Below are positions 14,692 through 35,478 of a stretch of DNA of 41,939 nt, one piece after another (within the stretch, counting starts at the first letter, position 1; each line of letters begins with the position of its first letter). Location of the stretch: the NCBI GenBank assembly GCA_947446635.1, contig CANFHF010000018.1, positions 1 through 41,939 on the forward strand, in the 5' to 3' direction. The translations under genes and the position numbers were made by a program. Source of the DNA: Flavobacteriaceae bacterium (lineage in GTDB: Bacteria; Bacteroidota; Bacteroidia; Flavobacteriales; Flavobacteriaceae). Under the pieces are notes generated by a model. That model was not told the DNA's origin. It ran no database searches and worked only from the letters and a program-made list of their open reading frames with translations.

Positions 14692-15953
14692 TAATAATTT
14701 TTTACTAACTCAGAAGGCGTCTTCACATCCAACCATAAAGCCTTCTCATTACCGTTATATGTTTTTGTAATGGGTTTGCCATCACGAGTTAACCCCTTAA
14801 AAAAACCCTGATCAACCATCTTCCAAAGCGCATACTTTGCTTGGGCTTCTAAATTGATTAATCCAAAATGATTCTCTGAACCCAAGGGATTTGAACTGTC
14901 TTTCCATTGTTCATCAAAAGCTTCAAAATAAAAACAGGAAATCCCTTCTTTATTTGTCCAATTTCTCATGAGATTATAATATTGAGCCTCTTTGTATTCA
15001 TCTGTTGCTTTAGAACCCGAGGCGCCATAATAGTCATTAGATATAGTAGCCCAACCCGTTTCGCCAATGTGAATTGGCTTATCAATTCCTAAAGATTTCA
15101 TGTAATTTGAAACACTTTTGTATTGCGCAATAGCATAGTCTCTTGATCGAATCATTGCGGCATCAATTTTCTCCCGTTCAGACAATTGTTTTTCATTCTC
15201 CAACCCCCACCAAAATTTGGGGTTGTAATGGGTGTCATGCATGGGATAGGTATGTATGGAAATATAATCCACTGCTTTGATGAGCAGTTTTAAATCTTCT
15301 ACATGATATTCATCACCCCCGCCTCCCCAAGACGCAAAATTATCGGAACTTGTTATCCATACATTTTCAGGTAATTTTTGTTCCTTTTTTAAATTTTGCA
15401 AATGATTTACCCATTTTAAAATTGTCCCTGGTTGCACATAATAACTCGTAGCCCATTTTACCATAGCTTCATTACCAACAGCAATGATCTTTATAATCTC
15501 AGGGTATTCATTTGTTAATTTTACCGCTTCTTCAATTTCAACTGCATTTCTCTCACTTTCTTGGTCATGAATAGGAGGAAGTGCAGTCCAAGCATTTTTA
15601 CAATCTATCCAAGCTCCTAACATGACATACATTTCAAAATTGGGCTCTTTTTTCTTTAAAGCCCTTATGGCTTTTAATAAATTACAGACTTCATTATGAT
15701 GCACATTATACGTTCTAAGCACTTTGATATTCATAGCCGATAGTATTCTCAAATCTTCTTTTATTTGAGAAACGGTCGGCACAGCATCTCTAGTTTTGGT
15801 TCTAAATCCTCCGTAACAGATAGCTTGATACTTTGAATTTCCTAGTATTTCTTTAGCTGTAATTTCTACAGTTTTTTTTGAATTCATATATTTATAACTA
15901 CAAGAAAATAACGTTACTACTAATAGGAGTGATATAACTCTTATTTTAAACAT
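14691..15953 (-). CDS. GH17 family lipoprotein (beta-1,3-glucanase/exo-glucanase type)
   Basis: A 420-residue GH17 enzyme. The short lipoprotein signal ends in LFSC (C18), so the enzyme is lipid-anchored. Family marks: YGGFR near 47, LRTYNVHH (about 79), acid/base VGNEAM (E162), ISIHTYPM (about 231), nucleophile GETGWA (E298) and a late EAFDEQW. GH17 enzymes in flavobacterial laminarin loci are exo- or endo-acting beta-1,3-glucanases that work on debranched chains. This one probably trims oligosaccharides made by GH16 before uptake (inferred). The start codon lies 4 bp after the end of the phosphorylase gene, and the stop overlaps the GH30 start by one base, so the three genes are tightly coupled. 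Confidence 0.9.
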   Translation of the reverse strand: MFKIRVISLLLVVTLFSCSYKYMNSKKTVEITAKEILGNSKYQAICYGGFRTKTRDAVPTVSQIKEDLRILSAMNIKVLRTYNVHHNEVCNLLKAIRALKKKEPNFEMYVMLGAWIDCKNAWTALPPIHDQESERNAVEIEEAVKLTNEYPEIIKIIAVGNEAMVKWATSYYVQPGTILKWVNHLQNLKKEQKLPENVWITSSDNFASWGGGGDEYHVEDLKLLIKAVDYISIHTYPMHDTHYNPKFWWGLENEKQLSEREKIDAAMIRSRDYAIAQYKSVSNYMKSLGIDKPIHIGETGWATISNDYYGASGSKATDEYKEAQYYNLMRNWTNKEGISCFYFEAFDEQWKDSSNPLGSENHFGLINLEAQAKYALWKMVDQGFFKGLTRDGKPITKTYNGNEKALWLDVKTPSELVKNY

Positions 15954-15957
15954 CTCC

Positions 15958-18900
15958 TTAAATATTAATAGCTACGGTAACTTGTATAACTTCTCCCGTT
16001 CGTTGAAATATTTTTTGACTCACCTCATGACTCAATGTCAAAGATGAAATAGTCTCAATAGCATTATTCTTATATTTCACTTCTATTTGGTTCATTTCAG
16101 CCAATTTATATACAATTGGCACTTGACAAATAGTAAATGCTAAACTTCCTTTTTCTAATGGAATTGAATAGGATTTATTTTCAAAATCTATAAAACTCAC
16201 TATTTCCTCCTGTAGTAAAAATTGATTTTTGTTTATTAAATCGGGTTGAAACCTAAGTTTCCCCGCATTAACTTTTATGCCTAATTCTCCTTTTCTTGTC
16301 AGTATATCTTCTTTTACTTGGCCTGTCATTCCAGGCTGTTGAGCCCCTCTGTGAGAAGGAGTATGTGAATAAGGATCCGTAGGAAATGCTCCGTATACTT
16401 CTGGAGTTTTATGAACGCCAATACCTTTGCCTATTTCATCATGATGCAATGCTAGGGCACTGATAACAGTAGCGTCTTCTTGATCACGATAGGCTTTTTC
16501 GATTACTTCCTGCACCGCTAAATGTAATTTGGATACCATGTGCCAATAAATAGAACCCAATCCTTCATACCCAAAGAAAGTACCCGATCTCCCTGTAAAA
16601 GCTTTGTGATTAAAAACTTCTTCAAAAATTTGAAGGATTTCTTCTGATTCTTTTCCAACTAAAAATTGATATTCTTCATCCTTTTTAAGTTGATCTAAAG
16701 CTGCTTTTAAATCATTTGCATTATGAAAATTGCCATTAAAATGATAATCACCTTTTACATCTTTATTTACAATCGCATTATTAGAATTAGCAAATAATTT
16801 GGTTAACAAAGTTGATTTTTCAATGCTAGATTTAGGAATATTGTTTTTCTTTAAGAATGTAGGCAAATCTTTATTTGGATACAAAATATAACTATTTTGA
16901 TCGGGACGGTACAAAGCACTATTTCGTAAAGCATCAATTATTTGTAATGATTCTTTTGCATTCAAATACCCAGAACTTAAAACAGCTACCTGGCCCTCGA
17001 GCATTTCGCTGAGGTTCGAGATAACTACACCCTCATTTTCAACGGACATCAAATTATAGGCTTGATACAATTTATCTGGTCTTTGATTTGCTTCAATAGA
17101 ATGATCAATAAAATCTAAACATACTTGGGTGAAGTTTTTTAAGCCAGCCATAGAGTGGGTTCTTTTCTTACCCCAAAATCCACTATTATATACTTGGTAG
17201 CGATACTCTGAAGCAGCTTGACCTAATGCATCCATTATTCTTTTTCTGTCTTGATTGTTTATTGGCGCGTCAAGTAAAGGTTTAAATTCAAGTAGATTCT
17301 CTCTGATGGCATGATAGAATTCAACCATTTCATTTGAGATTTTGATGTTTTCCTGGGTTGTAGTATCAAGTAATTTCTGGAAAAACTTCAAGAATCTTCG
17401 TAGATAATAAAGTGTCACCATAGAAACCCCATTACCTACTAAAGCATTGTTAGCATCATTCCATTCGGGACGTTGGGTGTTCATCCAAATTCCAGCTTCT
17501 GGAATAAAATTAGACATTTTGGACAACACGGTAGCGAGTACTTTTTCAATAAAATTTACATGATAAATTTCATCATTATTGTCTCGTAACAAAGTGCCAT
17601 CTGCTCCATTTAATTTTCTACGCTTATTAATTTTCTCATCCCATTCATGGTTATACGAAATAGTATCCTTTGGATTTTGCAGGATATCTTGATATGATTT
17701 TATAGTATAAGGAACTGCAGCATACACAAAACATTCTTTTTCAAAATAGGAATGCAATTTGCCAGGCTGGTATTTTTCTATAAATTCCAAGAATTTTAAT
17801 AAATAAATAATTTGGTGATCACCCCAATAGCCAATATAAGACCAAGGGTTATCAGGTTCAATAGTTTCCCAATCAAAACCACTTTTAGTAACGCGATAAG
17901 GATTATATCCATCAAATGTAGAGGCATTCAGGAATTTGTGAATCATTCCTTCTATAAATTCTGGATAGGCATGCGCTAAGGCTTCCCAATTTTGAAAAAT
18001 ATCTCGCCAGTTTCCTTCATAATCCAATATTTTAGAACCATCAATTTCACTTCGGGTATTGATAGAAAATTTATTCCAAGGGCGACTAGGGTCCCCGTGT
18101 CTGCGACTGAATTTTAAGGGTAAGTATTCCGTACACAACCTAACTAAATTCTCATCTTTCTGACTCTCTATTAAATGCAGTAATTGAATATAAGAAAATT
18201 CATCTTTTAAGTTTGAAACAAATGCTTGATTTTTTTCAAACACTGCTCTATTGGCTTTAGCTAAATATTGCGAAAAATCCTTTTTTTCGATTTGATAATT
18301 TTGATCAAAAATTCCGCCTCTCATGATATTGAAAAGCACATTAGCAAAATGCCGAGTGTCAACTAATTTATCAGCTGTAAATTGCAATCCATCAGCAGAG
18401 GCATTAAGCGCAATCAAATTTTGTTTTCCTAACTCAATATCATCCAAAAGTTGTTTTCTAAGCGTTTCATCATACTTTATAGACTCGCAAAGCTGTATAA
18501 CTTGAGATTGATTTTGGTTGACATTGGCAATAATTTTCCAATCTTTGGAAGTGTTTTGTGGTAAATAAAGATCGCTTGAAATAAAATAAGCTCCTTTTTC
18601 GCCTTTAACATCCGTTTCGCCTTTTAGTTTTTGCAACTTCCTAAAAGCTGGAAGTTGTTTAGACGATAGCAAATAGGTTGGATTTTCCATACCTAAAGAC
18701 CAAGCAATATTCGCCTTAAGAGCCTCGCTAGGTTCGGCTTTATCAACTATAATGGCGCTTAGTGCAAAAATACCCAAACCACTTTCAGTCTGTAATTCAC
18801 TTCTTTTATAAGCATCAACTAAATTACTAGTACTATTTTGCAAATCACTACTTACACCATGCGGCATAATGTTTTGAATCCCATCTAGTACCGTAATAGT

Positions 18901-19422
18901 ATAGTCCTTATTAGATTTATTTATAATTTCAGATTTTTTAACAAATCCGAAAAGATTACTTGAATTCCATTGGTATCTATAAGTCAGTTGCAAATCGTGG
19001 TGAATCTCCTCAAAAATGATTTTATTTCCGTAAAAGTTTTTGTATAGGTTTCTAGTAAGATTATAATTCTCATTAAAACGTTCCGAGAAAGGTTCCCAAA
19101 CCAATACTTTATCATCAAAACGAACTTGAAAAATAGATTTACTCCCTGTTATATCAGCAAATTCGGTTATTTTATCATCTGTATAATAAGGAAAAAGTGC
19201 AAACTCTGCATTTTTTCTTCCTGCAGTAAGTCCACCATTGCTTGATATAAACAACCAATGATTGGAATCACTCACGATGCTCATAAAAAAGGGACGCATA
19301 GTATCGTGATTTGGAATTTTATAATATTTTTCTCCTTCTAGAGATACTATTTCCATTGTTTTAATGTCTTTTATTTCTGTACTATTACTGTTTACAGCAA
19401 ATAGGGTATTAATTTCATTCAT
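15958..19422 (-). CDS. GH149-type beta-1,3-oligoglucan phosphorylase (probable)
   Basis: A 1154-residue protein with no signal peptide or membrane segment, hence cytoplasmic. Architecture resembles clan GH-Q phosphorylases: an N-terminal beta-sandwich (about 1-300, with SNGGLTAGRKNAEFALFPYY), a helical linker, and an alpha/alpha barrel (about 400-950). In the barrel, RPEWNDANNALVGNG carries a WND (654-656) like the catalytic Asp motif of GH94. Other conserved-looking blocks are INTRSEIDG (454), YEGNWRDIFQNWEAL (468) and YWGDHQIIYLL (532). Length and the beta-1,3-glucan setting fit GH149 best. GH161 and an unclassified GH94 relative are alternatives. It would cleave beta-1,3-gluco-oligosaccharides with phosphate to give glucose-1-phosphate, saving ATP. 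Its stop is 4 bp before the GH17 lipoprotein gene. Confidence 0.7.
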   Translation of the reverse strand: MNEINTLFAVNSNSTEIKDIKTMEIVSLEGEKYYKIPNHDTMRPFFMSIVSDSNHWLFISSNGGLTAGRKNAEFALFPYYTDDKITEFADITGSKSIFQVRFDDKVLVWEPFSERFNENYNLTRNLYKNFYGNKIIFEEIHHDLQLTYRYQWNSSNLFGFVKKSEIINKSNKDYTITVLDGIQNIMPHGVSSDLQNSTSNLVDAYKRSELQTESGLGIFALSAIIVDKAEPSEALKANIAWSLGMENPTYLLSSKQLPAFRKLQKLKGETDVKGEKGAYFISSDLYLPQNTSKDWKIIANVNQNQSQVIQLCESIKYDETLRKQLLDDIELGKQNLIALNASADGLQFTADKLVDTRHFANVLFNIMRGGIFDQNYQIEKKDFSQYLAKANRAVFEKNQAFVSNLKDEFSYIQLLHLIESQKDENLVRLCTEYLPLKFSRRHGDPSRPWNKFSINTRSEIDGSKILDYEGNWRDIFQNWEALAHAYPEFIEGMIHKFLNASTFDGYNPYRVTKSGFDWETIEPDNPWSYIGYWGDHQIIYLLKFLEFIEKYQPGKLHSYFEKECFVYAAVPYTIKSYQDILQNPKDTISYNHEWDEKINKRRKLNGADGTLLRDNNDEIYHVNFIEKVLATVLSKMSNFIPEAGIWMNTQRPEWNDANNALVGNGVSMVTLYYLRRFLKFFQKLLDTTTQENIKISNEMVEFYHAIRENLLEFKPLLDAPINNQDRKRIMDALGQAASEYRYQVYNSGFWGKKRTHSMAGLKNFTQVCLDFIDHSIEANQRPDKLYQAYNLMSVENEGVVISNLSEMLEGQVAVLSSGYLNAKESLQIIDALRNSALYRPDQNSYILYPNKDLPTFLKKNNIPKSSIEKSTLLTKLFANSNNAIVNKDVKGDYHFNGNFHNANDLKAALDQLKKDEEYQFLVGKESEEILQIFEEVFNHKAFTGRSGTFFGYEGLGSIYWHMVSKLHLAVQEVIEKAYRDQEDATVISALALHHDEIGKGIGVHKTPEVYGAFPTDPYSHTPSHRGAQQPGMTGQVKEDILTRKGELGIKVNAGKLRFQPDLINKNQFLLQEEIVSFIDFENKSYSIPLEKGSLAFTICQVPIVYKLAEMNQIEVKYKNNAIETISSLTLSHEVSQKIFQRTGEVIQVTVAINI

Positions 19423-19481: not shown

Positions 19482-20318
19482 CTAGTGATACACTCTCACG
19501 TAATCTATAGTCATTTTTTGTGGAAAAGAAGTTGAAGTATTAGGGTTGCCTAAAAAATTCCCTCCTACTGCTAAATTTAAAATTAGATAAAACGGATGAT
19601 CAAAAGCCCATACTTTTGGTACTCCATAAACCACTTTATTATCAACATCTGATTTATTAACTCTTTGATATAAGTAGCCATCCACATAAAAGTCTATTTT
19701 ATTTTCATCCCAATCAACTGCAAAAATGTGAAAACCTGTATCAAAGCGATTATTAATCAAAGTATAAGTATCTGTAATAGGATTGGATCCAAAATAACCC
19801 GGTCCGTGAAGTGAACTTTGCACAACATTAGGCTTCTGCCCTCTTAATTCCATAATGTCAATTTCACCACATTTTGGCCAAGTATTAGTATCCGAATCAT
19901 TTCCTAGCATCCAAAATGCTGGCCATAATCCTTGTCCATAAGGCGTTTGAATTCGGGCCTCAAAGCGTCCGTATTGTTGCTCTAATATTCCTTTTGTTTT
20001 AATTCTAGCTGAAGTATAAGAAGAACCATTTTTTATTGCCGTAATTACCAAATTTCCATTTCCGTCTTGCGAAATATTTTCAGGATCGTTAGTGTAAGTT
20101 TGTAATTCATTATTTCCCCAACCATGATCCCCTGTTCCTAAATCATAAGACCATTTTTCAAAATCAGGTAAATCACCTATTGCACCATCAAACTCATCAT
20201 TCCAAACAAGTGTTGTATATTTCGAGTCTACTTTTTGTCCATCATGAGAATCGCAAGCAATAAACGAAAGAACTATGATTGAGAGTAAAGCTGTTTTTTT
20301 TAATGTTATTTTTTTCAT
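19482..20318 (-). CDS. GH16 lipoprotein, endo-beta-1,3-glucanase (laminarinase)
   Basis: A single-domain GH16 enzyme of about 278 residues. I place the start at the ATG at 20318 (MKKITLKKTALLS), because this gives a standard lipoprotein signal ending in FIAC. An in-frame ATG at 20345 would add nine residues (MVFNLKQIQ) and cannot be excluded. The catalytic motif is GEIDIMEL (nucleophile Glu, Asp, acid/base Glu at residues 152, 154 and 157 from the chosen start). Other GH16_3-like marks are NDEFDG, GWGNNELQTYT, GRFEARIQTP and YGQGLWPAFWMLG. It should cut beta-1,3-glucan endo-wise at the outer membrane. It has no T9SS tail, unlike the two other GH16 genes here. The gaps are 61-88 bp upstream and 59 bp downstream. 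Confidence 0.92.
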   Translation of the reverse strand: MKKITLKKTALLSIIVLSFIACDSHDGQKVDSKYTTLVWNDEFDGAIGDLPDFEKWSYDLGTGDHGWGNNELQTYTNDPENISQDGNGNLVITAIKNGSSYTSARIKTKGILEQQYGRFEARIQTPYGQGLWPAFWMLGNDSDTNTWPKCGEIDIMELRGQKPNVVQSSLHGPGYFGSNPITDTYTLINNRFDTGFHIFAVDWDENKIDFYVDGYLYQRVNKSDVDNKVVYGVPKVWAFDHPFYLILNLAVGGNFLGNPNTSTSFPQKMTIDYVRVYH

Positions 20319-20406
20319 TTGTATCTGTTTTAAATTGAAAACCATATATTTAATTAATTTCGGAAATAAATATTATCTAAAAAATTATGACCATTATTTT
20401 AAAAAT

Positions 20407-21819
20407 CTAATTTTTGTAGAAATATAAGTTATCCAATAGGAAACTGATATTTCCAACAAAAACAATTAGACCAACATTACTTTTTTGGTTAGCAATATTT
20501 CCAGTTAATGGAATATCAATAGGGATCCAACTTCCAGCCGCAGAATTTATTTGGTTTACATCCACTGTTTTCGAAATTTCTTTATCGTCGTTTATTGGAT
20601 TTCCGGTATTATTATCTGATTCAATTATTCCGTTTGCACCTGTATCTCTTATTTTAATTACAAAACTTTGGTTCGCGAAATTAGTTGCGAAAATGTCCAG
20701 ATGGAGCATCGTCATCTCGGTTGCATTAACAGAAGGGTTATTACATTGAATTCCTACCCAATTAAGATTTGTGTAATTTTGAAGATTATCACCACCTACA
20801 GTTATAAGTTTTGTTTGAGTTGAAGAGCCACCCCAGTATCCATTGAAAAAATCAACCTTAACATTCGCATATTTATCACTAAAAAGAGAAATTACATTTC
20901 CTGCAGACTTATCTGGCTCTGGAGCATGAATAAAAGTTCCAGAGGATTGAGTTGTGATAGATCCTTTTGCAGCCACTCCATTTATTGTAGCCGTAATAAC
21001 TGCAGAACCAGATCCAACTTGCGTAATAACACCTTCTGAATCAACTGTTGCTTCAGCTTCGTTGGAAGATGAAAAGGTGAAAAAATAAGGCGAAGTGTTC
21101 ACTACTGGATTCGTTCCGTCTGACAAACTAAAGGTTGCCGAAAGATTTGCAATCTTTGTAGTAGTATTAAGATATAAAGATTCTGTTGTATTTAAGCCAC
21201 TATTTATTACTGGCTGAATATGCGCAAGGGTTCCTAAATTTTCAAATTTTACTTCATCTAACCAAAAAGAAAAACCATTTCCACCGTTTTCATGGGCTCC
21301 AGCAGAGAAATAAAATAATCCTTTTTGAGATTTTAACTTTGAAGCGTCAGGTATTGGTATTATATATTTTCTCCAAGCCGTGCTTAAATGTGTGTTGACT
21401 AAACTAGTAGTATATTTATTTTTATCAAAATCAACCCCAAAACCTAAAACACCTACCGTAGCAGCTACGGATGATTTAGCCCAAAAGGTTAAGGCGTTAT
21501 AACTTGTAAGATCTCTTCCTACTCCAGTAAGGTATGCGCCTCCAGCATAGAGTCCTGTATCTTCATTTGGCACATCAATTCGCATAGCAGCAGATGAGTT
21601 ATTGTACGTTACCTTATTATCTACTTGGAAAGCAAATATATCCGTACTGCCAAATGCACCATAATCTAATCCTGCACTAAAAGTGTCTATAAATACATTG
21701 GGATCCTTTGAAAATTCAGCTTCTTTCAAATCTTTATCATCATTTTGACATCCCAAAACGAATAATACACTCGCCAGAGTAAATCCTTTTTTTAATTTTA
21801 TAATTAAATGTGTTTTCAT
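20407..21819 (-). CDS. Surface glycan-binding lipoprotein with two carbohydrate-binding-like modules and a Big_2 domain
   Basis: A 470-residue lipoprotein (lipobox VLGC, C24) with no catalytic motif. Residues 35-195 form a beta-sandwich resembling carbohydrate-binding modules (FWAKSS at about 112, FWLDEVKFENLG at 185). Residues 205-290 look like a bacterial Ig-like group 2 domain (SSSNEAEATVDSEGVIT). Residues 305-470 form a second sandwich beginning ISLFSDKYANV with GYWGG, and ending FLLDNLYFYK. The second sandwich shares its pattern with residues 1422-1582 of the giant GH16 protein. By position it acts like a SusE/SusF-type surface glycan-binding protein that captures beta-glucan at the cell surface, but there is no SusD here. 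Its start is 13 bp downstream of the glycosidase-barrel gene. The function is inferred from architecture and context. Confidence 0.75.
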   Translation of the reverse strand: MKTHLIIKLKKGFTLASVLFVLGCQNDDKDLKEAEFSKDPNVFIDTFSAGLDYGAFGSTDIFAFQVDNKVTYNNSSAAMRIDVPNEDTGLYAGGAYLTGVGRDLTSYNALTFWAKSSVAATVGVLGFGVDFDKNKYTTSLVNTHLSTAWRKYIIPIPDASKLKSQKGLFYFSAGAHENGGNGFSFWLDEVKFENLGTLAHIQPVINSGLNTTESLYLNTTTKIANLSATFSLSDGTNPVVNTSPYFFTFSSSNEAEATVDSEGVITQVGSGSAVITATINGVAAKGSITTQSSGTFIHAPEPDKSAGNVISLFSDKYANVKVDFFNGYWGGSSTQTKLITVGGDNLQNYTNLNWVGIQCNNPSVNATEMTMLHLDIFATNFANQSFVIKIRDTGANGIIESDNNTGNPINDDKEISKTVDVNQINSAAGSWIPIDIPLTGNIANQKSNVGLIVFVGNISFLLDNLYFYKN

Positions 21820-21832
21820 TTTTTATATTTTT

Positions 21833-24800
21833 TTAATTACCAATGTTTATTTGAATGTAGGTTCTAATTTCCCATTCTTGACCATTAGAAAATCCAATAG
21901 CCGTAGGATCTGGCACTATATTTCCGGCTACATCTACAATTTGTGTTGGATTATATCGATTAGAATATTGATCTAGCGAACGCCAAGTTCCTCTTAACCC
22001 AATTCTTGTTCCTGGAAGTATAAACCAATCTTGTTTTCCTACTCCAAAAGAAACATCCGTCATGAATTGTACTGGATAAGTTAAATTAAAATCTCTGTTG
22101 TAATCATAAGGCCCCCAATCGTTTACTTTTAAAGATGAATTTAATTTTACTTTTTTATAAATCATTCTTAGATCGGATCCAAAACGTTTTATGGTTCTGG
22201 CATCGCTTCCATTCCCTTGGGCTGGCCCTCCATAAAGACTAGCTATGAAGCCAAGATCTGGAGTTAATTTTGATACAATTCTTACATTAGTTTCCCATAA
22301 ATCTTTAGCCGGAGCAGCTCCTGGAAAAGCAAAAGCGGTTCTATTCGCTAAAAAGCCTATAGCAGCATCTTGTGAAGTAGAAAAATGGCGGAATACGAAT
22401 CCTGCACTTATGGCAAATTCCGCATCTTCTGAACGGTCATTGTCCCATTCATACATCCACGTCCCTGGTGTTGGGTCATAAGTCAATAATAATTCCCCAG
22501 AAACTTGCTTTCTATTTGCTCTTACCACAAATGGATCATCTAGAATATTTCTAGGTCTTCCAGGAGCAGGAACGTTAGTGGTTATTGGGCCTTCTATGGG
22601 TTCTTGCCATAAGAAATTTGGAGCAATTTGTAATTTACCAACGGTATAAGTAAAACCACTTAAAAAATTGTATTGATTACCGCTTCCACTATCTTTCAAT
22701 CTCCAACCTGTGAAAGTTTGTGTAAGGTCTGCACCACCACCGGCAACTAATCCTTGAGCAGCAGCCTGTGCATACCAATTGAATTTTCCTCCTATATAGG
22801 TTAGTTTTAGCTTTTCTCCCCAGTTATCTCTAGATTTAATTTGAGTTAAATAGACTTGGTCACCTCTCATGACTTGATATTCTCTGCCAATGAGCGGTTG
22901 TCCTGCCCAAATACTTCCTAAATCAATACTAAAATCACCAAATTTTCTATTTAAATGTAAGGTAAATTTTCTTGTTTTGGGTTGAGGAATAGCAACTGAA
23001 CTTTCAGCTACCCCGCTTTGTTCTAAATCTTCATGAAAAATACCTGTTAGATTAAATTTTCCAATTGTTTTAGAATATTTAAGTAAAACAGCAGGATTGG
23101 CACCCCACCAAAGCTGAGGTCCAAAGGCTAATTTAAATCCTTTAATTGCTTTCTTTCCTTCCATTTCAAATCCAAAAGGAGCACCTGAATTATAGGTGTC
23201 TATATTAGGCCCGTAATTGGCTTCCGGATACAACCCAAAGAAATCGCCTTCATACCCCCAATGATAATGGCCACTTCTATAAAAACTATTTAAATTAAAC
23301 CATTTTTCATCCCATTTATAACTTGCTTTATATAATGACACCCGATTATTGTCTTGTAAACTTACATCCCCATTGGAGCCATTGACGTCTATTGGGCGCC
23401 CTCTGTTTTCATAAAATATTTCATCAATAGGATTAAGTGCTACATTCCCTAAAATATTGAATTCTACATTTGCTGTCATGTTAGATACTGGACTTCCTTC
23501 AACCCCCAAATAATAGGATTCCATGTGATCAAAACCAAGTTGATTTGGAAATGTAGTGTTTTTTGTAGGTGCAGTACTTGGTGTTGTAATTAAACTTCCT
23601 CCAGTGTTAAAAGTGGTAAATTCAGCGGCTAATCTGGAGAATTTAACTTTTCCGCTTTTTTGACTTTCTAATGCGGCTTTATCCCCTCTAGCTTTAAGAG
23701 CAGCTTCCATGATTTGGATTTTATCAAAATAAATCCCTACATCACTTAATGTTTTTCCATAGGCATACGGATTAAACTGATGTACTTCTTTTAAAATGTA
23801 GTACGCAGATCGAGGATATAATTGGTAATTTCCATTGGCATTCGTCGGTCCTTTGGCACAAATACCAAACCATTCTTCATTCATATTATTTTCCCCTTGC
23901 ACGTAATCAAAAGGATATCCTCCATTAGACCAAGAAGCATTGGTATCGTGGATGTCTAAATTTTTGGTTTGCGCATATTTCCACCAACCATCACTAAACT
24001 GAAAAGTAAATCCACCTAAACAATTTCCAATTTTACCTAAACCTGCTGCGTTTTCATAAATTTCTTTCCAATTGCCCTTTAGAATCTTTGCTTGTCCATT
24101 TTGTTCTTCTTCGCCAGTGACAGCGTTAAAAGCATCAGAACCAAATTCAGCAAAAAATACTGGTTTACCGTATTCTTTTTTTACTCTTTCAAAGATATCT
24201 CCAAATGAAATTCCACGGTAAGCATTAACCCCTAGCGCATCTACATCTGGACATTTTTTTGCAATAATATCTAAAAATAACAAGTCTCCATTACATATCG
24301 CCACCGGATGTGAAGTATCGATAGTTTTCATAGCAACAGCGGCTTCATTGAATAAAGCATACATATATTGCGCACGTTTTGTAGACTTTCTGTCCTTAAC
24401 AGGGATGTTTTCGGTTTCAGCTCCATCCCAAAACAAACCATAGTTATTCTCATTCCCTAATAAAAACAACAGCAGTCCTTTGGTGTCTTTATAATCTGAA
24501 GCCAATTCTTTTACTTCTTTCAAAAGTAATTTTCGGGTTTTAGTATCTGCATATTCTGTCGTTGGAACCCATGCTCCATCAATTGTTAAGCCGTAACGAC
24601 CAAAAGAATGGTTTAACATCGTATAAATACCATAATTAGTATAAATGTATTCAATCCATTTTTTTGGGATACCCGCATAAACTCTTATAGTATTTACACC
24701 CATGTTTTTCAATAAAGACATTTCATCGTCTAAAGCTTGCTTAATAACGCTCTCTGGCTGATTATAAAGGCTATACGAATAATTTGTGCCAATAGGGGTG

Positions 24801-24949
24801 TAATCCCAGTTTACACCATTAATAATAAAGTCATTTCCATTGACTTTGATTTTCATTCCTGAGATGCTTTTATCTATGGATACCTTATCAGATTGAGAAA
24901 AAACAGATGCTGAATAACAGCAAAATATTAATAATAAAAAATTTTTCAT
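21833..24949 (-). CDS. Glycosidase-like TIM barrel fused to a predicted outer-membrane beta-barrel
   Basis: A 1038-residue protein and the first gene of the operon. The signal peptide is residues 1-18 (cut before QSDK). Residues 30-400 resemble a GH2/GH5-like clan A TIM barrel, opening with IKVNGNDFIINGVNWDYTP. It contains LLGNENNYG (E167, candidate acid/base) and FFAEFGSDAF (E268, candidate nucleophile), an N-E pair and a later E as in clan A retaining enzymes. Residues 470-1038 hold about 16-18 alternating amphipathic strands with aromatic girdles (KLAFGPQLWW, FNLTGIFHE, KLKLTYIGG, EFAISAGFVF, FMTDVSFGVG) and end EIRTYIQINIGN, which looks like a final outer-membrane beta-strand. The protein would thus be a surface glycosidase or transglycosidase anchored by, or feeding, a porin. 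The family is not recognised with certainty and the barrel is predicted by eye. Confidence 0.72.
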   Translation of the reverse strand: MKNFLLLIFCCYSASVFSQSDKVSIDKSISGMKIKVNGNDFIINGVNWDYTPIGTNYSYSLYNQPESVIKQALDDEMSLLKNMGVNTIRVYAGIPKKWIEYIYTNYGIYTMLNHSFGRYGLTIDGAWVPTTEYADTKTRKLLLKEVKELASDYKDTKGLLLFLLGNENNYGLFWDGAETENIPVKDRKSTKRAQYMYALFNEAAVAMKTIDTSHPVAICNGDLLFLDIIAKKCPDVDALGVNAYRGISFGDIFERVKKEYGKPVFFAEFGSDAFNAVTGEEEQNGQAKILKGNWKEIYENAAGLGKIGNCLGGFTFQFSDGWWKYAQTKNLDIHDTNASWSNGGYPFDYVQGENNMNEEWFGICAKGPTNANGNYQLYPRSAYYILKEVHQFNPYAYGKTLSDVGIYFDKIQIMEAALKARGDKAALESQKSGKVKFSRLAAEFTTFNTGGSLITTPSTAPTKNTTFPNQLGFDHMESYYLGVEGSPVSNMTANVEFNILGNVALNPIDEIFYENRGRPIDVNGSNGDVSLQDNNRVSLYKASYKWDEKWFNLNSFYRSGHYHWGYEGDFFGLYPEANYGPNIDTYNSGAPFGFEMEGKKAIKGFKLAFGPQLWWGANPAVLLKYSKTIGKFNLTGIFHEDLEQSGVAESSVAIPQPKTRKFTLHLNRKFGDFSIDLGSIWAGQPLIGREYQVMRGDQVYLTQIKSRDNWGEKLKLTYIGGKFNWYAQAAAQGLVAGGGADLTQTFTGWRLKDSGSGNQYNFLSGFTYTVGKLQIAPNFLWQEPIEGPITTNVPAPGRPRNILDDPFVVRANRKQVSGELLLTYDPTPGTWMYEWDNDRSEDAEFAISAGFVFRHFSTSQDAAIGFLANRTAFAFPGAAPAKDLWETNVRIVSKLTPDLGFIASLYGGPAQGNGSDARTIKRFGSDLRMIYKKVKLNSSLKVNDWGPYDYNRDFNLTYPVQFMTDVSFGVGKQDWFILPGTRIGLRGTWRSLDQYSNRYNPTQIVDVAGNIVPDPTAIGFSNGQEWEIRTYIQINIGN

Positions 24950-25331: not shown

Positions 25332-25423
25332 TTAAATTCTTTTTAAGAACATTCTGCTAGTTATAAATCCTTAATTTTTGAATGAAAACCATTATTAAAC
25401 AAAGAATAATTTATAGATTAAAT

Positions 25424-28306
25424 ATGGAATTTAGAACGTTTCGACCCCTATTTTTACTAGTATTATTGTGCACCGAACTCATTTATGGACAAGTAAAGAG
25501 TATCGGTGTTCCAGAAATTAGAAATTATAAAAGAACCGATTATAAAGGCGGTACCCAAAATTGGGATATTAACCAAGATAAAGATGGCAATATGTATTTT
25601 GCCAATAATAATGGTCTTTTTCAATTTGATGGTGTTGCATGGCATAAATATACTTTGCCAAATCACTCGGTTATAAGAGTGGTAGAAATTCAAGATTCTG
25701 GAAAAATTTTTGTTGGAGGCTATAATGAGTTTGGCTATTTCAAATCAGATTCAAAAGGAAAACTAGTCTATTTTTCTATATCAAGGTTTTTAAACTCCCG
25801 AAATGACAATACTGAAAATACTATTGATATTATTTGGAAAATACACTTTAATAAAGAAGAAGTGATTTTTCAATCTTTCGGAAGCCTCTTTGTATTTAAG
25901 AATAATGCTATAAAAACAATTAAGGCGCCTTCGAGATTTCATTTTTCGTTTAAAGTAAATAATAGGCTCTATTTTCAAGATGTTTCATTAGGCTTAATGG
26001 AATATATAAGCGGCAAGCTTTTTCCTATTGCAGACTCAACCATATTAAACAGTACTGAGGTATGGGGAATGTTCCAAATGCCTGATAATAAAATACTGAT
26101 TGCAACTTTGGATAAAGGACTTTACCTATATGGAAAAGGTAAAATAACTTCTTGGGATACTGAGGCTAATAATTTTATCCAAAAGAACAGCTGCTTGGGT
26201 GGAGTCGCTATGAAGAACAACCATATTGTCCTTAATTCCGTTCGGAACGGCTTTATTGTGTGTGACGCTACAGGACGCATAATTCAGCAAATTAATCGCA
26301 GGAAAGGCCTCCAAAACAACACCATACTCACGTCATTTATAGACCATAAAAATAATCTTTGGTTAGGACTTGATAATGGAATTACTTTCATAAACGAAAA
26401 TTCACCCTTTTCATATTTTGGCTATAGTTATGATATAAACACCGTATACGCTAGTGTGACCTATAAAGGAAATTTATATGTAGCCACCAACCAAGGTGTT
26501 TTTTACCATTCTTGGACTATTCCCTTCAACGAAGACACTTTTACTTTGGTAGAAGGTACAACAGGTCAAGCTACAAATATCCAAGTTATTGATGGCCAAT
26601 TAATCTGCGCCCACAATAAAGGAGCTTTCTTAATTGAAGGAGGTAAATCAACCCAAACATTAGACAATGTAGGTTATTGGATTTTTAAGAAAATTCCAAA
26701 TCATCCTAATTTTATGATAGGCTCAAATTACAATGGATTTTCTCTTTTTAAGAAAGGAATTAATGGATGGGAATTCGCACATCAAATAGAAGGGTTTTAC
26801 AAATCTATAGGTGAATTCGAAATTGACGGAAAAAATATTTGGGTGATAAAAGATAATCTTCTTTATCAAATCGCTCTTAACGAAGGTTATGAAAATTTTA
26901 AAAACATACGGACCTACCAAAACCTATCTAAAACCGACAAAGGAATAATAAGCGTACAGCAACTAAAAAACAAAATCTATTTTAAAACTAAAAATCATTT
27001 TTACAGATATTCTCAAAACAGCGATGTCTTTTATGAGGACCAAAAAGCTAGTAACTTATTCAAACCAATCCTCAGCGCTTCCATTACACGCGAGGATAAT
27101 TACGGAAATATATGGTACATTAACAATCGCGGCTTAGGGGTATTAACGAAAAAAACAAAGGACAACTATACCAATAGTACAGCGCCTTTTTTAAATTTTA
27201 CCCAGAATTTAGTTTTAAACAATTTATCGGTAAATAACATCAATCCTGAAAACATATTTATAGGTCTTACCGAAGGAATGGCCCATTATAATTCGAAATT
27301 ATCAAAATATTATATAGATAAGCCGAAAGCTTTTATAAAAAGCTTCTCTACTCTAAAAGATACTTTGTTTTATGGAAATGGGCCAAATAATACCCTAAAA
27401 TATAAAATTCCTTATCAATCAAATTATGTGAAATTTACCTTTTCCACCCCTACTTATGAAAACACACAAAATGTTAAATTCTCTTGTCAATTGGAAGGCT
27501 TTGAAGACAGGTGGAGCAACTGGTCCTTATCCTCTATAAAAGAATACACAAATCTTAGAGAAGGTGATTATGTAATGAAAGTGCGGGTTTTAAATAGTTA
27601 TGGGATTCAATCTGATCAAGCCCAGTTGGCCTTTACCATATCCCCTCCTTGGTACAGACACTTACTAGCTTATTTGTTTTATATTATTACTGTCGGGATA
27701 TTTATTCATTATGTCCGAGAAAAAATACAAGCAAAAATTAGAAAGAATAAGTACTACCAAACTATTGAACAGAGAAGAATTTATTTGGAAAAAGAGTCGA
27801 AAATAAGGCAGGAACAATTTGATTTGGAAAAAGAGATCGAAAGACTGCAAAATGAAAGACTTAAGGTCAAAATCCTCGCAAAAGACAAAGAACTAGTGAC
27901 CAACTCTTTACAAGTTGTGAAGACAAATAAAATTTTGAATGGGATTATTCAAAAACTAAAAGACATTAAAACGGATTCATTTGACGAAGCAACAAAATTC
28001 CAATTTACAAAATTAAATAAAAGCATTGTTAAAGAAGTGACTGTGGACAATAGTTGGAAAGACTTAGAAAAACATATCAAGAATGTTCATTATGACTTTT
28101 TAAAAAGATTAAAAGAAAAATGTCCTACAATTTCAGCTCGGGAAATGGATTTATCTACTTATTTAGTAATGAACATGTCTACAAAAGAAATAGCTGAAAT
28201 TTTGAATATTTCCATCGGTGGAGTAGAACTTGCGCGATATCGATTGAGAAAAAAATTAGACCTTAACAAGAAGGAGAATCTTACAAGCTTTTTAATTAGT
28301 ATTTAA
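25424..28306 (+). CDS. Membrane-bound sensor-regulator: propeller, Y_Y_Y, coiled coil, LuxR-type HTH
   Basis: Transcription regulator of about 960 residues. I prefer the ATG at 25424 (MEFRTFRPLFLLVLL), which starts a clean signal peptide. The frame extends to an ATG at 25382, adding 14 residues, and residue numbers below count from that one. Residues 50-645 form a two-component-type beta-propeller sensor (repeats such as DKDGNMYFANNNGLF, DHKNNLWLGLDNGI and DNYGNIWYINNRG). Residues 682-752 are a Y_Y_Y domain (SCQLEGFEDRWSNWS). Residues 759-778 are a single membrane helix, and 785-850 a charged coiled coil. Residues 915-970 are a LuxR-like helix-turn-helix (STKEIAEILNISIGGVELAR). No histidine kinase or receiver domain is present, so the sensor is joined directly to a membrane-tethered DNA-binding domain. 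It is divergent from the glucan operon and is the likely glucan-responsive activator. Confidence 0.88.
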   Translation: MEFRTFRPLFLLVLLCTELIYGQVKSIGVPEIRNYKRTDYKGGTQNWDINQDKDGNMYFANNNGLFQFDGVAWHKYTLPNHSVIRVVEIQDSGKIFVGGYNEFGYFKSDSKGKLVYFSISRFLNSRNDNTENTIDIIWKIHFNKEEVIFQSFGSLFVFKNNAIKTIKAPSRFHFSFKVNNRLYFQDVSLGLMEYISGKLFPIADSTILNSTEVWGMFQMPDNKILIATLDKGLYLYGKGKITSWDTEANNFIQKNSCLGGVAMKNNHIVLNSVRNGFIVCDATGRIIQQINRRKGLQNNTILTSFIDHKNNLWLGLDNGITFINENSPFSYFGYSYDINTVYASVTYKGNLYVATNQGVFYHSWTIPFNEDTFTLVEGTTGQATNIQVIDGQLICAHNKGAFLIEGGKSTQTLDNVGYWIFKKIPNHPNFMIGSNYNGFSLFKKGINGWEFAHQIEGFYKSIGEFEIDGKNIWVIKDNLLYQIALNEGYENFKNIRTYQNLSKTDKGIISVQQLKNKIYFKTKNHFYRYSQNSDVFYEDQKASNLFKPILSASITREDNYGNIWYINNRGLGVLTKKTKDNYTNSTAPFLNFTQNLVLNNLSVNNINPENIFIGLTEGMAHYNSKLSKYYIDKPKAFIKSFSTLKDTLFYGNGPNNTLKYKIPYQSNYVKFTFSTPTYENTQNVKFSCQLEGFEDRWSNWSLSSIKEYTNLREGDYVMKVRVLNSYGIQSDQAQLAFTISPPWYRHLLAYLFYIITVGIFIHYVREKIQAKIRKNKYYQTIEQRRIYLEKESKIRQEQFDLEKEIERLQNERLKVKILAKDKELVTNSLQVVKTNKILNGIIQKLKDIKTDSFDEATKFQFTKLNKSIVKEVTVDNSWKDLEKHIKNVHYDFLKRLKEKCPTISAREMDLSTYLVMNMSTKEIAEILNISIGGVELARYRLRKKLDLNKKENLTSFLISI

Positions 28307-29708: not shown

Positions 29709-31397
29709 TTAATTTCTTGCCGATTTTTTTTTATCAGATTTTGAACCAACTCTAGACATAGCGCATCTAAATCCAATATAGTCAGTCGCCATATCTTCAG
29801 GAAAATAACGTCTTTGTGCTGGATCTAGCCAATACGCTCGGTCTCTCCAAGACCCTCCTTTATACACTCTAACCTTATTATTTATCAAAGTAGTTCTCTT
29901 GTCAGATTTGTCAAGTTTTCTAACCACATTCCCTAAACTATCGGTGGTAGCTCTATTTTTCGGGGAATTATACATAGCGCTTTCATCTTTACCTTTTTTT
30001 GTATCAGACTCCGAATCAGCTTTATTTTTAAAATCGATTGTAGATTGTTTATCCCCGTCTCTATAATTAACATTGTCACTCTTGTCATAATTGTATCTTA
30101 AATATGTATCCATTGAATCAACTGGCACTTGAATAATTTGTCCTGGAAAACTAATTGCAACTTTTTTGCCATTACTCAAAGTTTCGAATCCTATATTATC
30201 TTTTGTAACAACTTCAATTTTACCATCCTTGCCAATTTTATTTTTGGTATACTGATTTCCTCTAAAATAATTAAAATCATTGGCTTCGTTGTCAATAATT
30301 GGTCTATACACATCGGCAACCCATTCAGCTACGTTCCCCGCCATATCATACAATCCAAAATCATTTGCTGGATAGCTTTTTACCGCATTAGTAATATCTG
30401 CCCCGTCATCTGACCAACCTGCAATACCTCCATAATCACCATTTCCTTGTTTGAAATTGGCCAATTGGTCTCCTTTAGTTTGTCTTTTTCCAGAACGAGT
30501 ATAACTTCCGGTCCAAGGGTATTTCTTCTGACCTTTATATATATTAAATTCTCTTTGACCTACATCGGCTGCAGCCGCATACTCCCATTCTGCCTCTGTT
30601 GGCAGTCTATATTCTGGAAGCAGAATGCCTGAAGAACGTTGCGCATATAGGTTTGATGGCTCTATAACCTTACCATCTTTTCCTGGTTTTGCTGTTTTTT
30701 TCGTTCCTTTTCTTCCCGGCAAAACAATTTCAGCATTTCCTCCATAGGCAAGTGTTGGGGAATTCAAATAGGTTTCGGTATTAAAATTGCTTTCAGCCGT
30801 AACATCGTTTGTTTTTGCATTCTTTTTAAGATAACCTTTTTTTTCCAATAAAGCCTCATTAACACGTTCTGTTCTCCATTTGCTAAATTCAACCGCTTGA
30901 ATCCAGTTAACTCCCACAACGGGATAATTGGCATAGGCAGGATGCCTTAAATAATTATTAGTCATCGTTTCATTATAGCCTAATCTATTTCTCCAAACTA
31001 ATGTATCAGGCAAGGCTCCTTGATAAATGTTTTTATAATTTTCTTCCGTTGGAGGAAATACTTTTTTCAGCCAGTTTAAATATTCCAAATACATAAAGTT
31101 GGTCACCTCGGTTTCGTCCATATAAAAAGACATTACATGTTGTTGACTAGGTGTATTGTTCCAATCGTGCATGACATCGTCTTCGACTTTACCCATCGTA
31201 AAAGTACCTCCTTCAACAAATACCAAACCAGGTCCTGCTTGTTGTTTCTTATTGCCAGAAGTTTTTTTGCCGTCTACTTTCCAACCTGTTGCTTGCGAAG
31301 CATTTTTAGAATTCCATATTTTTTTACAACTAGCAAAACTCACAATCAACATCAATGATAAAATCAATCGTAAAGCCATAATTTTGTTTACTTTCAT
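29709..31397 (-). CDS. gldJ: Gliding motility lipoprotein GldJ
   Basis: A 562-residue lipoprotein (lipobox FASC, C24) related to formylglycine-generating enzyme/sulfatase-modifying factor (FGE-sulfatase fold). Marks: LVFVEGGTFTMGKVEDD (about 58), DETEVTNFMYLEYL, YRLPTEAEWEYAAAA, GLYDMAGNVAEWVADVY, KGGSWRDRAYWLDP and YIGFRCAMSR. In Flavobacterium johnsoniae GldJ is required for gliding and stabilises GldK and the T9SS; it is not an active FGE. Length matches the known protein closely. An alternative start at Met7 would still leave a lipoprotein signal. It is divergent from porU, 211 bp away. Confidence 0.95.
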   Translation of the reverse strand: MKVNKIMALRLILSLMLIVSFASCKKIWNSKNASQATGWKVDGKKTSGNKKQQAGPGLVFVEGGTFTMGKVEDDVMHDWNNTPSQQHVMSFYMDETEVTNFMYLEYLNWLKKVFPPTEENYKNIYQGALPDTLVWRNRLGYNETMTNNYLRHPAYANYPVVGVNWIQAVEFSKWRTERVNEALLEKKGYLKKNAKTNDVTAESNFNTETYLNSPTLAYGGNAEIVLPGRKGTKKTAKPGKDGKVIEPSNLYAQRSSGILLPEYRLPTEAEWEYAAAADVGQREFNIYKGQKKYPWTGSYTRSGKRQTKGDQLANFKQGNGDYGGIAGWSDDGADITNAVKSYPANDFGLYDMAGNVAEWVADVYRPIIDNEANDFNYFRGNQYTKNKIGKDGKIEVVTKDNIGFETLSNGKKVAISFPGQIIQVPVDSMDTYLRYNYDKSDNVNYRDGDKQSTIDFKNKADSESDTKKGKDESAMYNSPKNRATTDSLGNVVRKLDKSDKRTTLINNKVRVYKGGSWRDRAYWLDPAQRRYFPEDMATDYIGFRCAMSRVGSKSDKKKSARN

Positions 31398-31517
31398 ACT
31401 CTTTGGTAGCTAATAATTTAGTTGGCGCAATATAATAATTAACCATTAAACTGCAACCTCATTTTTTGAATAAATAAAAAAACAGATGTGTTAATACTAA
31501 AACACACCATGAGAACG

Positions 31518-31525
31518 CAAATTTA
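31518..31525 (-). promoter_or_regulatory. Candidate -7 element for gldJ
   Basis: On the - strand TAAATTTG matches TAnnTTTG perfectly. It lies 120 bp upstream of the gldJ start in the gldJ-porU divergent region. A TTG 16 bp further upstream (31542-31544) could serve as -33, although the spacing is shorter than usual. No equally good element was seen for porU. Confidence 0.35.
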
Positions 31526-31608
31526 TACTATTTATTATTTACAATTATACTAAAAGATATAATTTTACTCGTTATAATATTTTACTCTTAATTGCGTTTA
31601 AAAAAATA

Positions 31609-34600
31609 ATGAAAAAAATACTTTTAGTCTACCTAACCCTTATACCCTTTGTTTCTTTTTCACAAGCTAAAGGCGATGTTGCTATTGAATGGCTTGAGAA
31701 GAAAGAGATGTATTTCGGTGATTCTAAAATAAACGTACCTCAATTTTCTGGAAAAAGTTATAGTTACAATACTGCTGAGAAGTCTCTTTTATTTATCCTA
31801 AATCTAAACGCTTCAGGTGCTTTTGAAGGAAATTCAGTTCAAATCACAAATGTGATTTACGAATCCGTTTCGGCCTCACAACTTGGAGATTTATCCTTGA
31901 AAAACATTCCGAAGACCCCTTCCGCAAAGTTAAAAACTACCATTTCACGAAATACAAAGCAGCTGTTCCTTGTCCTATCCCCCATCGTAAAAGATGAACT
32001 TGGGTACAAACGGATTACGTCTTTTTCCTATTCGGTAAACGGAAGTGTTTCTAGAATTTCACAAAATAGTAAAAGTGCTGCCGTACTAACCAATTCGGTT
32101 TTGGCAACAGGCGACTGGTATCGATTTTATGTCGAAAAATCAGGTGTATATAAAATATCCAAGGCTTTTTTACAACAATTAGGCCTTGATCCAAGTGCAA
32201 TTGACCCCAGAAAACTAAAAATTTATGGGAATGGAGGCCGGATGCTGCCGCTATCAAATAGCATATTCTATCCATCTGATTTAACCGAAAATGCCATTCA
32301 AGTCGTTGGCGAAAGCGATGGCGTATTTAATAATGATGATTTTATCCTATTATACGCAGAAGGAGTGGATACTTGGAATGAAGAAAGCCAGACCAATACT
32401 AATCTGTACGACACCAAATCCTATTATTATGTTACGGTTGAGGGAGACGAAGGAAAGAGAATTTTGGAGATGGCTCAACCCACAGGAAACAGCACTTCAA
32501 CTATAATTACTTTTGATGACTATCAATCCCACGAATTGGATCTTGTAAATATTGTGAAACTAGGCCGGCAATGGTTTGGAGAATCATTTGACACCAACCC
32601 TGAACAAGAATTTTCATTTAATTTTCCAAATATTGACATACAAACGCCAGTAAAATTGATGGTAACAGCCGCCTCGGCCGCTTATACAAATACCTCTTTC
32701 AAGGTTTTGGCAAACGAAAAAAATGCAGGAACAATTTCTTTTTCGGCACTGGCCACTAATTCCGGCACTGGCTTCAATCTAGGTTCTTTACCAAACAACA
32801 CCACTTTTACCGCCAATGAAAATATAAAAATAAAATTAACCTATTACAATAATGGTGTTCCCGGTTCGAAAGGATACCTTGATAACATTCGGCTTTTTGC
32901 CAAAAGAAAACTGCAAGGATATGGAAAACAATTTCGATTTCAGTTTGATTCAGCTGCTTCAAGTAGCGGAATTGTAAATTATCAAATTTCTAACGCAAGC
33001 GGAATTTCACAAGTGTGGGATATAACGGACATATACAATGTAACCAAAGTCGAAAACCCAAATCAAACTTTATTTTCCTTTAAGGCAACTCTGGGTGAAG
33101 TTAGAAAATATGTAGCTATTGATGCTTCGGATTATTTGACTCCTCTGAGAACTAATAAAACAAAAATTGCAAATCAGAATTTAAAAGGAACACTTTTTAA
33201 AAACGAACAAGGACAATTTCAGGATATTGACTATGTAATTATTACGCCCGGTTTTCTGACAACTCAAGCCAATAAATTAGCCGATTTTCACCGTTCTTAT
33301 TCTAAGTTGAATGTCAAGGTGATAACCCTTGAATCCATATATCAAGAGTTTTCGTCCGGAAAACAAGATATTGCCGCCATCAGAAATTGTATTAAATATA
33401 TTTATTGGAATGCTTCTTCCACTGAAAAAAGAATAAAATATGTCAACCTTTTTGGAGATGCTTCCTATGATTATAAAAATCGAATCGCAAACAACACCAA
33501 CATAGTACCTATATATCATGCTTTAAATAGCAATACCCTAGGGGAATCTTCCTATGCGTCTGATGATTTTTATGGATTAATGGATTCTAGCGAAGGGAAT
33601 ATAGGTTACGATTTTGGAGGAGTAGATATTGCTGTGGGTAGAATGTTAGTAAATGACGCCGTGCAAGCCGATGAAATGGTAAATAAAGTAATTGAATACC
33701 ATGATATAAAATCTTATGGAAGTTGGAGAAATAATGTTGTTGTGATTGCAGATGACTCAGACAAAGTTTCGGACTTAACCTTGCAAAGTAGACAAAACAC
33801 TTTGGCAGATGTTGTTTCAGCTCAAAAACCATTTATCAATGTCAATAAAATACTATTGGATTCCTATGTTCAAGAAGCATCTGCAGGAGGGTCAAGATAC
33901 CCTAAGGCCCGGACAGATTTATTCAGTGCCTTCGAAAAAGGAGCGTTGGTTTTTAACTATTTAGGTCATGGTGGTGAAGATGGTTTATCAGGGGAACGGA
34001 TTTGGGAAAAATCCGATGGTCAAAACTTAAGCAATCAATATAAATACCCTTTATTCGTAACGATCACTTGTGATTTTTCTCGTTTTGACAATCCCTTCAG
34101 GCCTACAGCTGGTGAATATGTCTATTGGAACCCTAAAGGAGGTGCTATTGCTATGATAACGACCACTCGTGAGATTGGCCAATTTAGTGCAGAAAATTTT
34201 AATGATCTATTAGCAGAAAAATTGTTTTCCTATGGTTCCAACCAATATACTTCTATTGCCGAAACCTTGATGAACTGCAAAAACGACCAACCCAATTCAG
34301 CAACCAATGTTGTTTTTTATATTGGCGACCCAGCCATAATGTTGGCAATACCCAAGCCCAAAATAACACTCACAAAAATTAACGACATACCTGTTTCGCA
34401 ACCCTTCGACGATTTCAAATCATTGGCAAAGATGAAATTGTCCGGAGAAATAACCGATGAAAACAACAATCCAATACCAACCTATAACGGCGAGCTTTTT
34501 ACTACAATATTCGATAAAACAATTTCGAGAGCAACCTTAAATAATGATGGGAATAGCCCTCCAATAAATTTCAATACATTAGGAGAAACCATCTATAAAG

Positions 34601-35439: not shown

Positions 35440-35478
35440 TAAAAAACTATATTTGTTGAATCTATTTTAATTTCAAAA

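Follow-up and report, generated by a model that had tools for sequence, protein, structure and literature searches.

A glycosidase fused to a predicted outer-membrane barrel, and its partner lipoprotein, as a possible TonB-independent route for beta-1,3-glucan import in Bacteroidota

The DNA analysed here (41,939 nucleotides, hereafter the window) is the whole of contig CANFHF010000018.1 (contig C18) of the Flavobacteriaceae bacterium assembly GCA_947446635.1. On its minus strand (24949-21833) it carries an uninterrupted single reading frame of 1038 amino acids (aa), in which a glycosidase domain is joined to a predicted 24-strand outer-membrane barrel. This fusion gene is the first of its operon, as the initial annotation of the window had proposed; the operon is a run of 11 minus-strand genes, and a gap of 13 base pairs separates it from the gene of a 470-aa lipoprotein (20407-21819, minus strand). 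The reading that we favour, with about even confidence, is that the fusion protein and this lipoprotein import beta-1,3-glucan chains without a TonB-driven SusC/SusD pump, by an uptake mechanism that we infer. More tentatively, they may represent a second, TonB-independent route of polysaccharide import in Bacteroidota, formed of a 24-strand channel with its own periplasmic endo-glucanase and a dedicated surface lipoprotein, in which cutting rather than a TonB motor drives uptake. Such a route would have been overlooked for two reasons: the protein is catalogued simply as a glycosidase, and locus finders seek SusC/SusD.

What speaks most strongly for a working unit is the co-occurrence of the fusion with the lipoprotein, which the initial annotation overlooked. 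In a survey set of 392 sampled Bacteroidota genomes, 58 had any match to the fusion protein (36 whole or near-whole fusions, nine enzyme-only forms, two broken genes and 11 weak partial matches). The 36 fusion genomes alone were counted as barrel genomes, the other 22 being placed among the remaining 356. The lipoprotein was matched in 65 genomes, near full-length in 37 and partially in 28, the partial matches being mostly to its C-terminal repeats. Near full-length copies were present in all 36 fusion genomes and in one of the 356 others, an association with a Fisher p of 3e-50 that is not corrected for kinship. None of the nine enzyme-only genomes has a near full-length copy, and two of them (G123 and G104) hold the C-terminal repeats alone. 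A barrel without the lipoprotein was not found among the 392 genomes. The lone genome with the lipoprotein and no barrel, G126 (L088), has two genes between the lipoprotein and a SusC/SusD pair, as if the lipoprotein could act there for another outer-membrane transporter.

Gene order follows the same pattern. Large stretches of DNA were obtained for 33 of the 36 fusion genomes, and the lipoprotein is the next gene on the same strand in 34 of the 36 (31 of the 33 large stretches plus the focal gene, G305 (L014) and G204 by coordinates). The exceptions are G144, in which it lies at the other end of the cluster, and G387, in which it adjoins the fusion and is divergent. It also lies next to the fusion in all 79 testable named loci; the named loci are the 80 best among 584, a choice that favours whole fusions. 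The partner has acidic residues behind its lipid cysteine (CQNDDKD) and repeats that it shares with a GH16 protein (GH, glycoside hydrolase) with a type IX secretion system (T9SS) sorting domain. Pfam gave no SusD family match in it and only a weak match to Big_2, and a comparison with solved structures gave four matches, the best at E 0.066.

The history of the family points the same way. An enzyme tree was built from 32 of the 36 fusions, the nine enzyme-only forms and four outgroups; fused and enzyme-only forms interleave in it with at least five changes, and fused forms as a single clade are ruled out (approximately unbiased test, p-AU 1.7e-61). Barrel and lipoprotein change together in five of five independent tree pairs, for which the sign test gives p 0.0625, the minimum possible with five pairs. 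We tentatively read this as one barrel family that may have been lost several times. A barrel profile matched 38 of the 392 genomes, namely the 36 whole or near-whole fusions (in G204 truncated where the contig stops) and fragments of broken genes in G119 and G235, and found no free-standing barrel. A search with the barrel alone gave 958 database matches (E <= 1); five candidates for a free-standing barrel were examined from the best 120 of them, and all five begin inside the enzyme domain and are cut fusions.

The fusion is widespread. Its database relatives number 5545 at E <= 0.001 among 7997 scored, and go by the names of glycosidase, GH5 family protein and GH2 TIM barrel-domain protein. 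Genera that hold the fusion include Flavobacterium, Cloacibacterium, Epilithonimonas, Winogradskyella, Algoriphagus and Robiginitalea, and there are others among metagenome-assembled genomes (MAGs) of Chitinophagales, Saprospiraceae, Bacteroidales and Balneolaceae. Its distribution is patchy, since it is absent from the 20 listed same-genus genomes besides the window's own though many Flavobacterium relatives exist. A fusion with 59.7% identity was found at 30790-33864 of NZ_OY725931.1, a record of 45.8 kb entered as a Bacteroides finegoldii plasmid, which may be a mislabelled contig or a case of transfer. In G077 and G139 (L040 and L041), GH149/GH17/MFS loci that lack the barrel encode short proteins (331-352 aa) distantly related to the enzyme domain (26-29% identity).

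The initial annotation had read the product as a glycosidase TIM barrel fused to an outer-membrane beta-barrel; structure prediction supports this, and for a prediction the fold assignment is strong. Following an apparent signal peptide (residues 1-19, 24893-24949; a hydrophobic N-terminus ending SVFSQ, judged by eye) and the enzyme domain, the predicted outer-membrane barrel occupies residues 436-1038 (21836-23644), and two AlphaFold2 models place 24 beta-strands at residues 436-1037, with short turns alternating with long loops. All 50 structural neighbours listed for it are membrane beta-barrels. The alternation of hydropathy along the strands, with strand bounds taken from the model, exceeds that of shuffled sequences (none of 2000 reached the observed value). 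The alternating amphipathic strands claimed earlier are upheld, in a barrel of about 600 residues and not 570. The predicted even number of amphipathic strands, the short inner turns and the long outer loops, along with the apparent signal peptide, are those of an outer-membrane barrel, and soluble beta-sandwiches at residues 470-1038 are ruled out by both models and by the fold matches. As for the ending, which had been described as that of an outer-membrane protein, the chain does end on a beta-strand (...IQINIGN) but lacks the terminal aromatic residue of the classical outer-membrane signal.

No Pfam family matches the barrel up to E 5, so none of the autotransporter, AlgE or usher families does, and a plug domain or TonB-dependent receptor family was not matched in the fusion protein by Pfam or NCBIfam. 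With no family match, a SusC reading of the barrel was rejected, as was an autotransporter reading, for which the 24 predicted strands also tell against. A viral fold library returned porin, SusC-like and autotransporter-like phage entries and was uninformative.

The fold matches bear on two other explanations. The barrel resembles the substrate-specific porins OprD/OccK, LamB and chitoporin, and it could be an ordinary diffusion porin for the short products of surface enzymes, of the kind that the GH16 enzymes of the operon would yield, with the fused glycosidase trimming oligosaccharides in the periplasm and the lipoprotein acting as a separate surface binder without contact. We regard this as unlikely, as it leaves unexplained the link between barrel and lipoprotein in 36 of 36 genomes and in five of five independent pairs, and also the absence of a free-standing barrel from the 392 genomes. 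The top fold matches of the barrel are to AlgE, the alginate exporter, and pilus ushers are the listed matches that span nearly its whole length, in both cases at 6-12% identity. These matches would suit a role in export or surface remodelling, in which the barrel releases the lipoprotein or a glucan and the periplasmic glycosidase edits it, as in exopolysaccharide export. Such a role is very improbable, as family scans matched no glycosyltransferase family among the 11 genes of the operon, and the genes form a degradative set that includes a phosphorylase of the cytosolic type and sugar transporters of the inward type.

The enzyme domain (residues 20-400, 23750-24892, minus strand) is modelled as a clan GH-A-like TIM barrel that begins about 20 residues past the signal peptide. 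The two glutamates named by the initial annotation are where it had put them: E167 (24449-24451), in the motif GNEN and preceded by N166, is the candidate acid/base, and E268 (24146-24148), in AEFG, is the candidate nucleophile. An alignment of 58 full-length proteins, among them the focal one, shows no variation at N166, E167 or E268. In the model E167 follows strand 159-164 (beta4) and E268 follows strand 264-270 (beta7), so that the N-E pair and the second glutamate stand where clan GH-A enzymes have them in their TIM barrel. The nearest folds are the GH158/GH157 laminarinases and GH2, with GH158 ranked first. The best PDB profile match is likewise to GH158, at E 6.3e-4; it is partial, spanning about 140 positions, and membership of that family is putative. 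The beta-sandwich domains that precede the TIM barrel in GH2 are absent from the model, and a GH2 Pfam match, absent from the focal protein, is present in some relatives. The domain is predicted to be endo-beta-1,3-glucanase-like, with a putative specificity for glucan.

The even strand number, together with the short turns and long loops, would put the N-terminus of the barrel, and therefore the enzyme, in the periplasm. The initial annotation had suggested that the enzyme might be displayed on the surface or might deliver its products straight into the pore. The predicted topology disfavours the former, and from the latter it retains action at the pore, on the inner side. Between the two domains lies a helical linker (residues 401-435, 23645-23749, minus strand), modelled as a helix of about 30 residues, which is the least conserved stretch of the protein with none of its 35 positions invariant. 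Invariant positions make up 26.8% of the outer loops, 26.0% of the enzyme and 19.1% of the strands, and outer loops 3, 4, 7 and 11 are nearly fixed across the aligned proteins, whereas porin loops are usually variable.

The sides of the membrane were also examined through lipoprotein signals, using a home-made lipobox rule and counting, in lipobox-bearing proteins only, acidic residues at +2 to +7 from the lipid cysteine. A lipobox was recognised in 19 of 20 partner lipoproteins, 21 of 24 GH16, 17 of 18 GH17 and 10 of 15 GH30 proteins and in five of eight enzyme-only proteins, the other three lacking one. At least two acidic residues follow in 17 of 19 partners and 19 of 21 GH16 proteins, compared with 4 of 17 GH17, 2 of 10 GH30 and one of five enzyme-only proteins. 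In Bacteroidota, lipoproteins bound for the surface carry acidic signals. On these counts the partner and GH16 would be outside, whereas the enzyme domain, GH17 and GH30 would face inwards.

It may instead be that the barrel is mainly an anchor that keeps the glucanase on display at the cell surface; the linker helix would then be threaded through it as in autotransporters, and no sugar would pass. The helix between enzyme and barrel would suit this, and so would the lipobox that stands in place of the barrel in five of the eight enzyme-only relatives whose N-terminus can be read, as membrane attachment may then be what matters. We consider it unlikely. Twenty-four strands, 600 residues and conserved outer loops far exceed the needs of an anchor, there is no autotransporter family match, the loop pattern sets the N-terminus in the periplasm, and the pairing with the lipoprotein is left unexplained.

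The search for SusC and SusD at the loci used BLAST with the SusC/SusD proteins of the focal genome. The upstream span of the large stretches was 2.6 to 14.9 kb, and an upstream SusC/SusD may be missed in the shorter ones, as the pair lies upstream when present. SusC or SusD was found in 5 of the 33 sampled fusion loci, all in the focal family, and in 3 of the 20 with at least 5 kb upstream; it was also found in 3 of the 49 named loci that extend 8 kb to either side. Of the nine enzyme-only loci, two have both SusC and SusD nearby, and another has a partial SusC at the distant end of its stretch. A hidden SusC was sought with Pfam in 14 large proteins (nine unassigned open reading frames from six named loci and five from sampled loci), none of which is a TonB receptor. 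Genome searches for SusC (TIGR04056) and SusD (PF14322) gave no match on the contig of the fusion.

The role of the fusion in glucan use is well supported by its gene context. Downstream of the partner lipoprotein, and all on the minus strand, are genes for a GH16 lipoprotein (19482-20345; family match and lipobox), a GH149 beta-1,3-glucan phosphorylase (15958-19422; NCBIfam match above cut-off) and, by family match, a GH17 lipoprotein (14691-15953), a GH30 (13177-14691), an MFS transporter of the GPH kind (11712-13139), a short GH17 without an apparent signal peptide (10761-11687), a GH16 with a T9SS sorting domain (8990-10690), an MFS sugar porter (7382-8944) and a 2383-aa GH16 protein with PA14 and Ig-like domains and a T9SS sorting domain (171-7322). 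With GH149, three GH16, two GH17, one GH30 and two MFS transporters, the operon is, as judged by family, a beta-1,3-glucan degradation set. The repeats of the 2383-aa protein resemble those of the partner lipoprotein. A divergent regulator gene with Y_Y_Y and LuxR-type domains lies upstream of the fusion gene (25382-28306, plus strand; family match), and the Bacteroidetes-type promoter motif TAnnTTTG was not found upstream of the fusion gene. Adjoining genes for a peptidase C25 and PorV (31609-36651, plus strand) place parts of type IX secretion on the same contig as the T9SS-tailed GH16 proteins.

The first and last steps of an import cycle follow from these enzyme families. Secreted and surface GH16 enzymes would cut laminarin-like glucan into chains, and at the end periplasmic GH17 and GH30 would trim them and MFS carriers would bring oligosaccharides in for GH149 to split with phosphate. 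In between, the lipoprotein would capture chains at the cell surface and feed them to the barrel, where the unusually conserved outer loops may guide them. The chains would pass through the barrel by diffusion, and the periplasmic enzyme domain below the pore would cut them as they arrive and so block their slipping back (cut-and-trap). Conduction by the pore, contact with the lipoprotein and cut-and-trap are steps that we infer.

Several observations weigh against import by the fusion and its lipoprotein. The open, plug-free pore is putative, and the full-length model (predicted template modelling score, pTM, 0.50) does not fix the position of the enzyme at the pore. The loci of eight relatives hold both the fusion and SusC/SusD, so that the fusion need not be the sole gate, and elsewhere the focal genome has five SusC and four SusD matches over cut-off, with one pair beside GH30 and GH3 genes. 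The enzyme domain occurs without the barrel in nine genomes, and thus can do without it, and the p of 0.0625 from five tree pairs is also to be counted here.

Beta-1,3-glucan of the laminarin type accounts for a large flow of carbon, and in Bacteroidota SusC/SusD are credited with taking it up. If the proposed import is correct, loci without SusC/SusD gain an outer-membrane channel of their own, belonging to a phylum-wide family, and a gene so far listed as a glycosidase only is explained. It would also change how glycan-uptake loci are recognised and provide a testable case of enzyme-driven import.

No description of a glycosidase fused to an outer-membrane barrel was found in a search of open-licence papers; the initial annotation likewise knew of no standard description of a porin with its own glycosidase. 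Related loci are published. Laminarin loci of variant B or variant 1 contain GH149, GH16, GH17, GH30_1 and MFS genes (PMC6298971, PMC10108472, PMC13188888); in the passages covered here SusCD is taken as the uptake system and no outer-membrane barrel is mentioned on the upstream 'GH2' that accompanies GH16 and GH149 in a Muricauda locus (PMC13188888), or on the unclassified 'GH0' of North Sea GH149 loci, which ranks within the top 10% by expression in one MAG (PMC10108472). Judged by gene order alone, this 'GH2' and 'GH0' may be the enzyme of the fusion. One North Sea GH149 locus is without susCD, and glucan loci lacking the SusC/SusD pair are filed as 'CAZyme clusters' and not as polysaccharide utilisation loci (PMC10108472).

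A glycosidase joined to a sugar transporter has been reported from the same kind of locus in Formosa, as an MFS-GH17 fusion that the authors called previously undescribed; the carrier there is an inner-membrane MFS protein, unlike the outer-membrane barrel here (PMC6246565). In the window MFS and the short GH17 are separate neighbours, and seven loci of relatives (L049, L072, L077, L089, L092, L094 and L099) have MFS reading frames of 783-1107 aa against 475 aa, which are perhaps the published MFS-GH17 fusions. The enzyme itself is most like GH158 (BuGH158, GH158(Pro)) and GH157, which share the TIM barrel, the N-E after beta4, the E after beta7 and the laminarin context, at about 22% identity. 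In BuGH158, N136-E137 and E220 are essential residues, corresponding to N166-E167 and E268, and its C-terminal Ig-like domain is absent from the model of the fusion, where the linker helix and membrane barrel stand instead (PMC7157763).

In organisation there is a likeness to SusC/SusD, in that an outer-membrane channel gene lies beside the gene of a surface-type lipoprotein in a glycan operon; the likeness is one of working only. The fusion differs in having no plug, TonB or SusC family match, a partner without a SusD match and a glycosidase domain of its own, and its barrel has 24 predicted strands against the 22 of SusC. AlgE and PgaA/PgaB also combine a barrel with a periplasmic part that handles sugar, and AlgE heads the fold matches of the barrel. 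They are, however, exporters of 16-18 strands in which the processing enzyme (PgaB) is a separate protein, whereas in the protein described here the enzyme is fused to the barrel and the proposed direction is inward.
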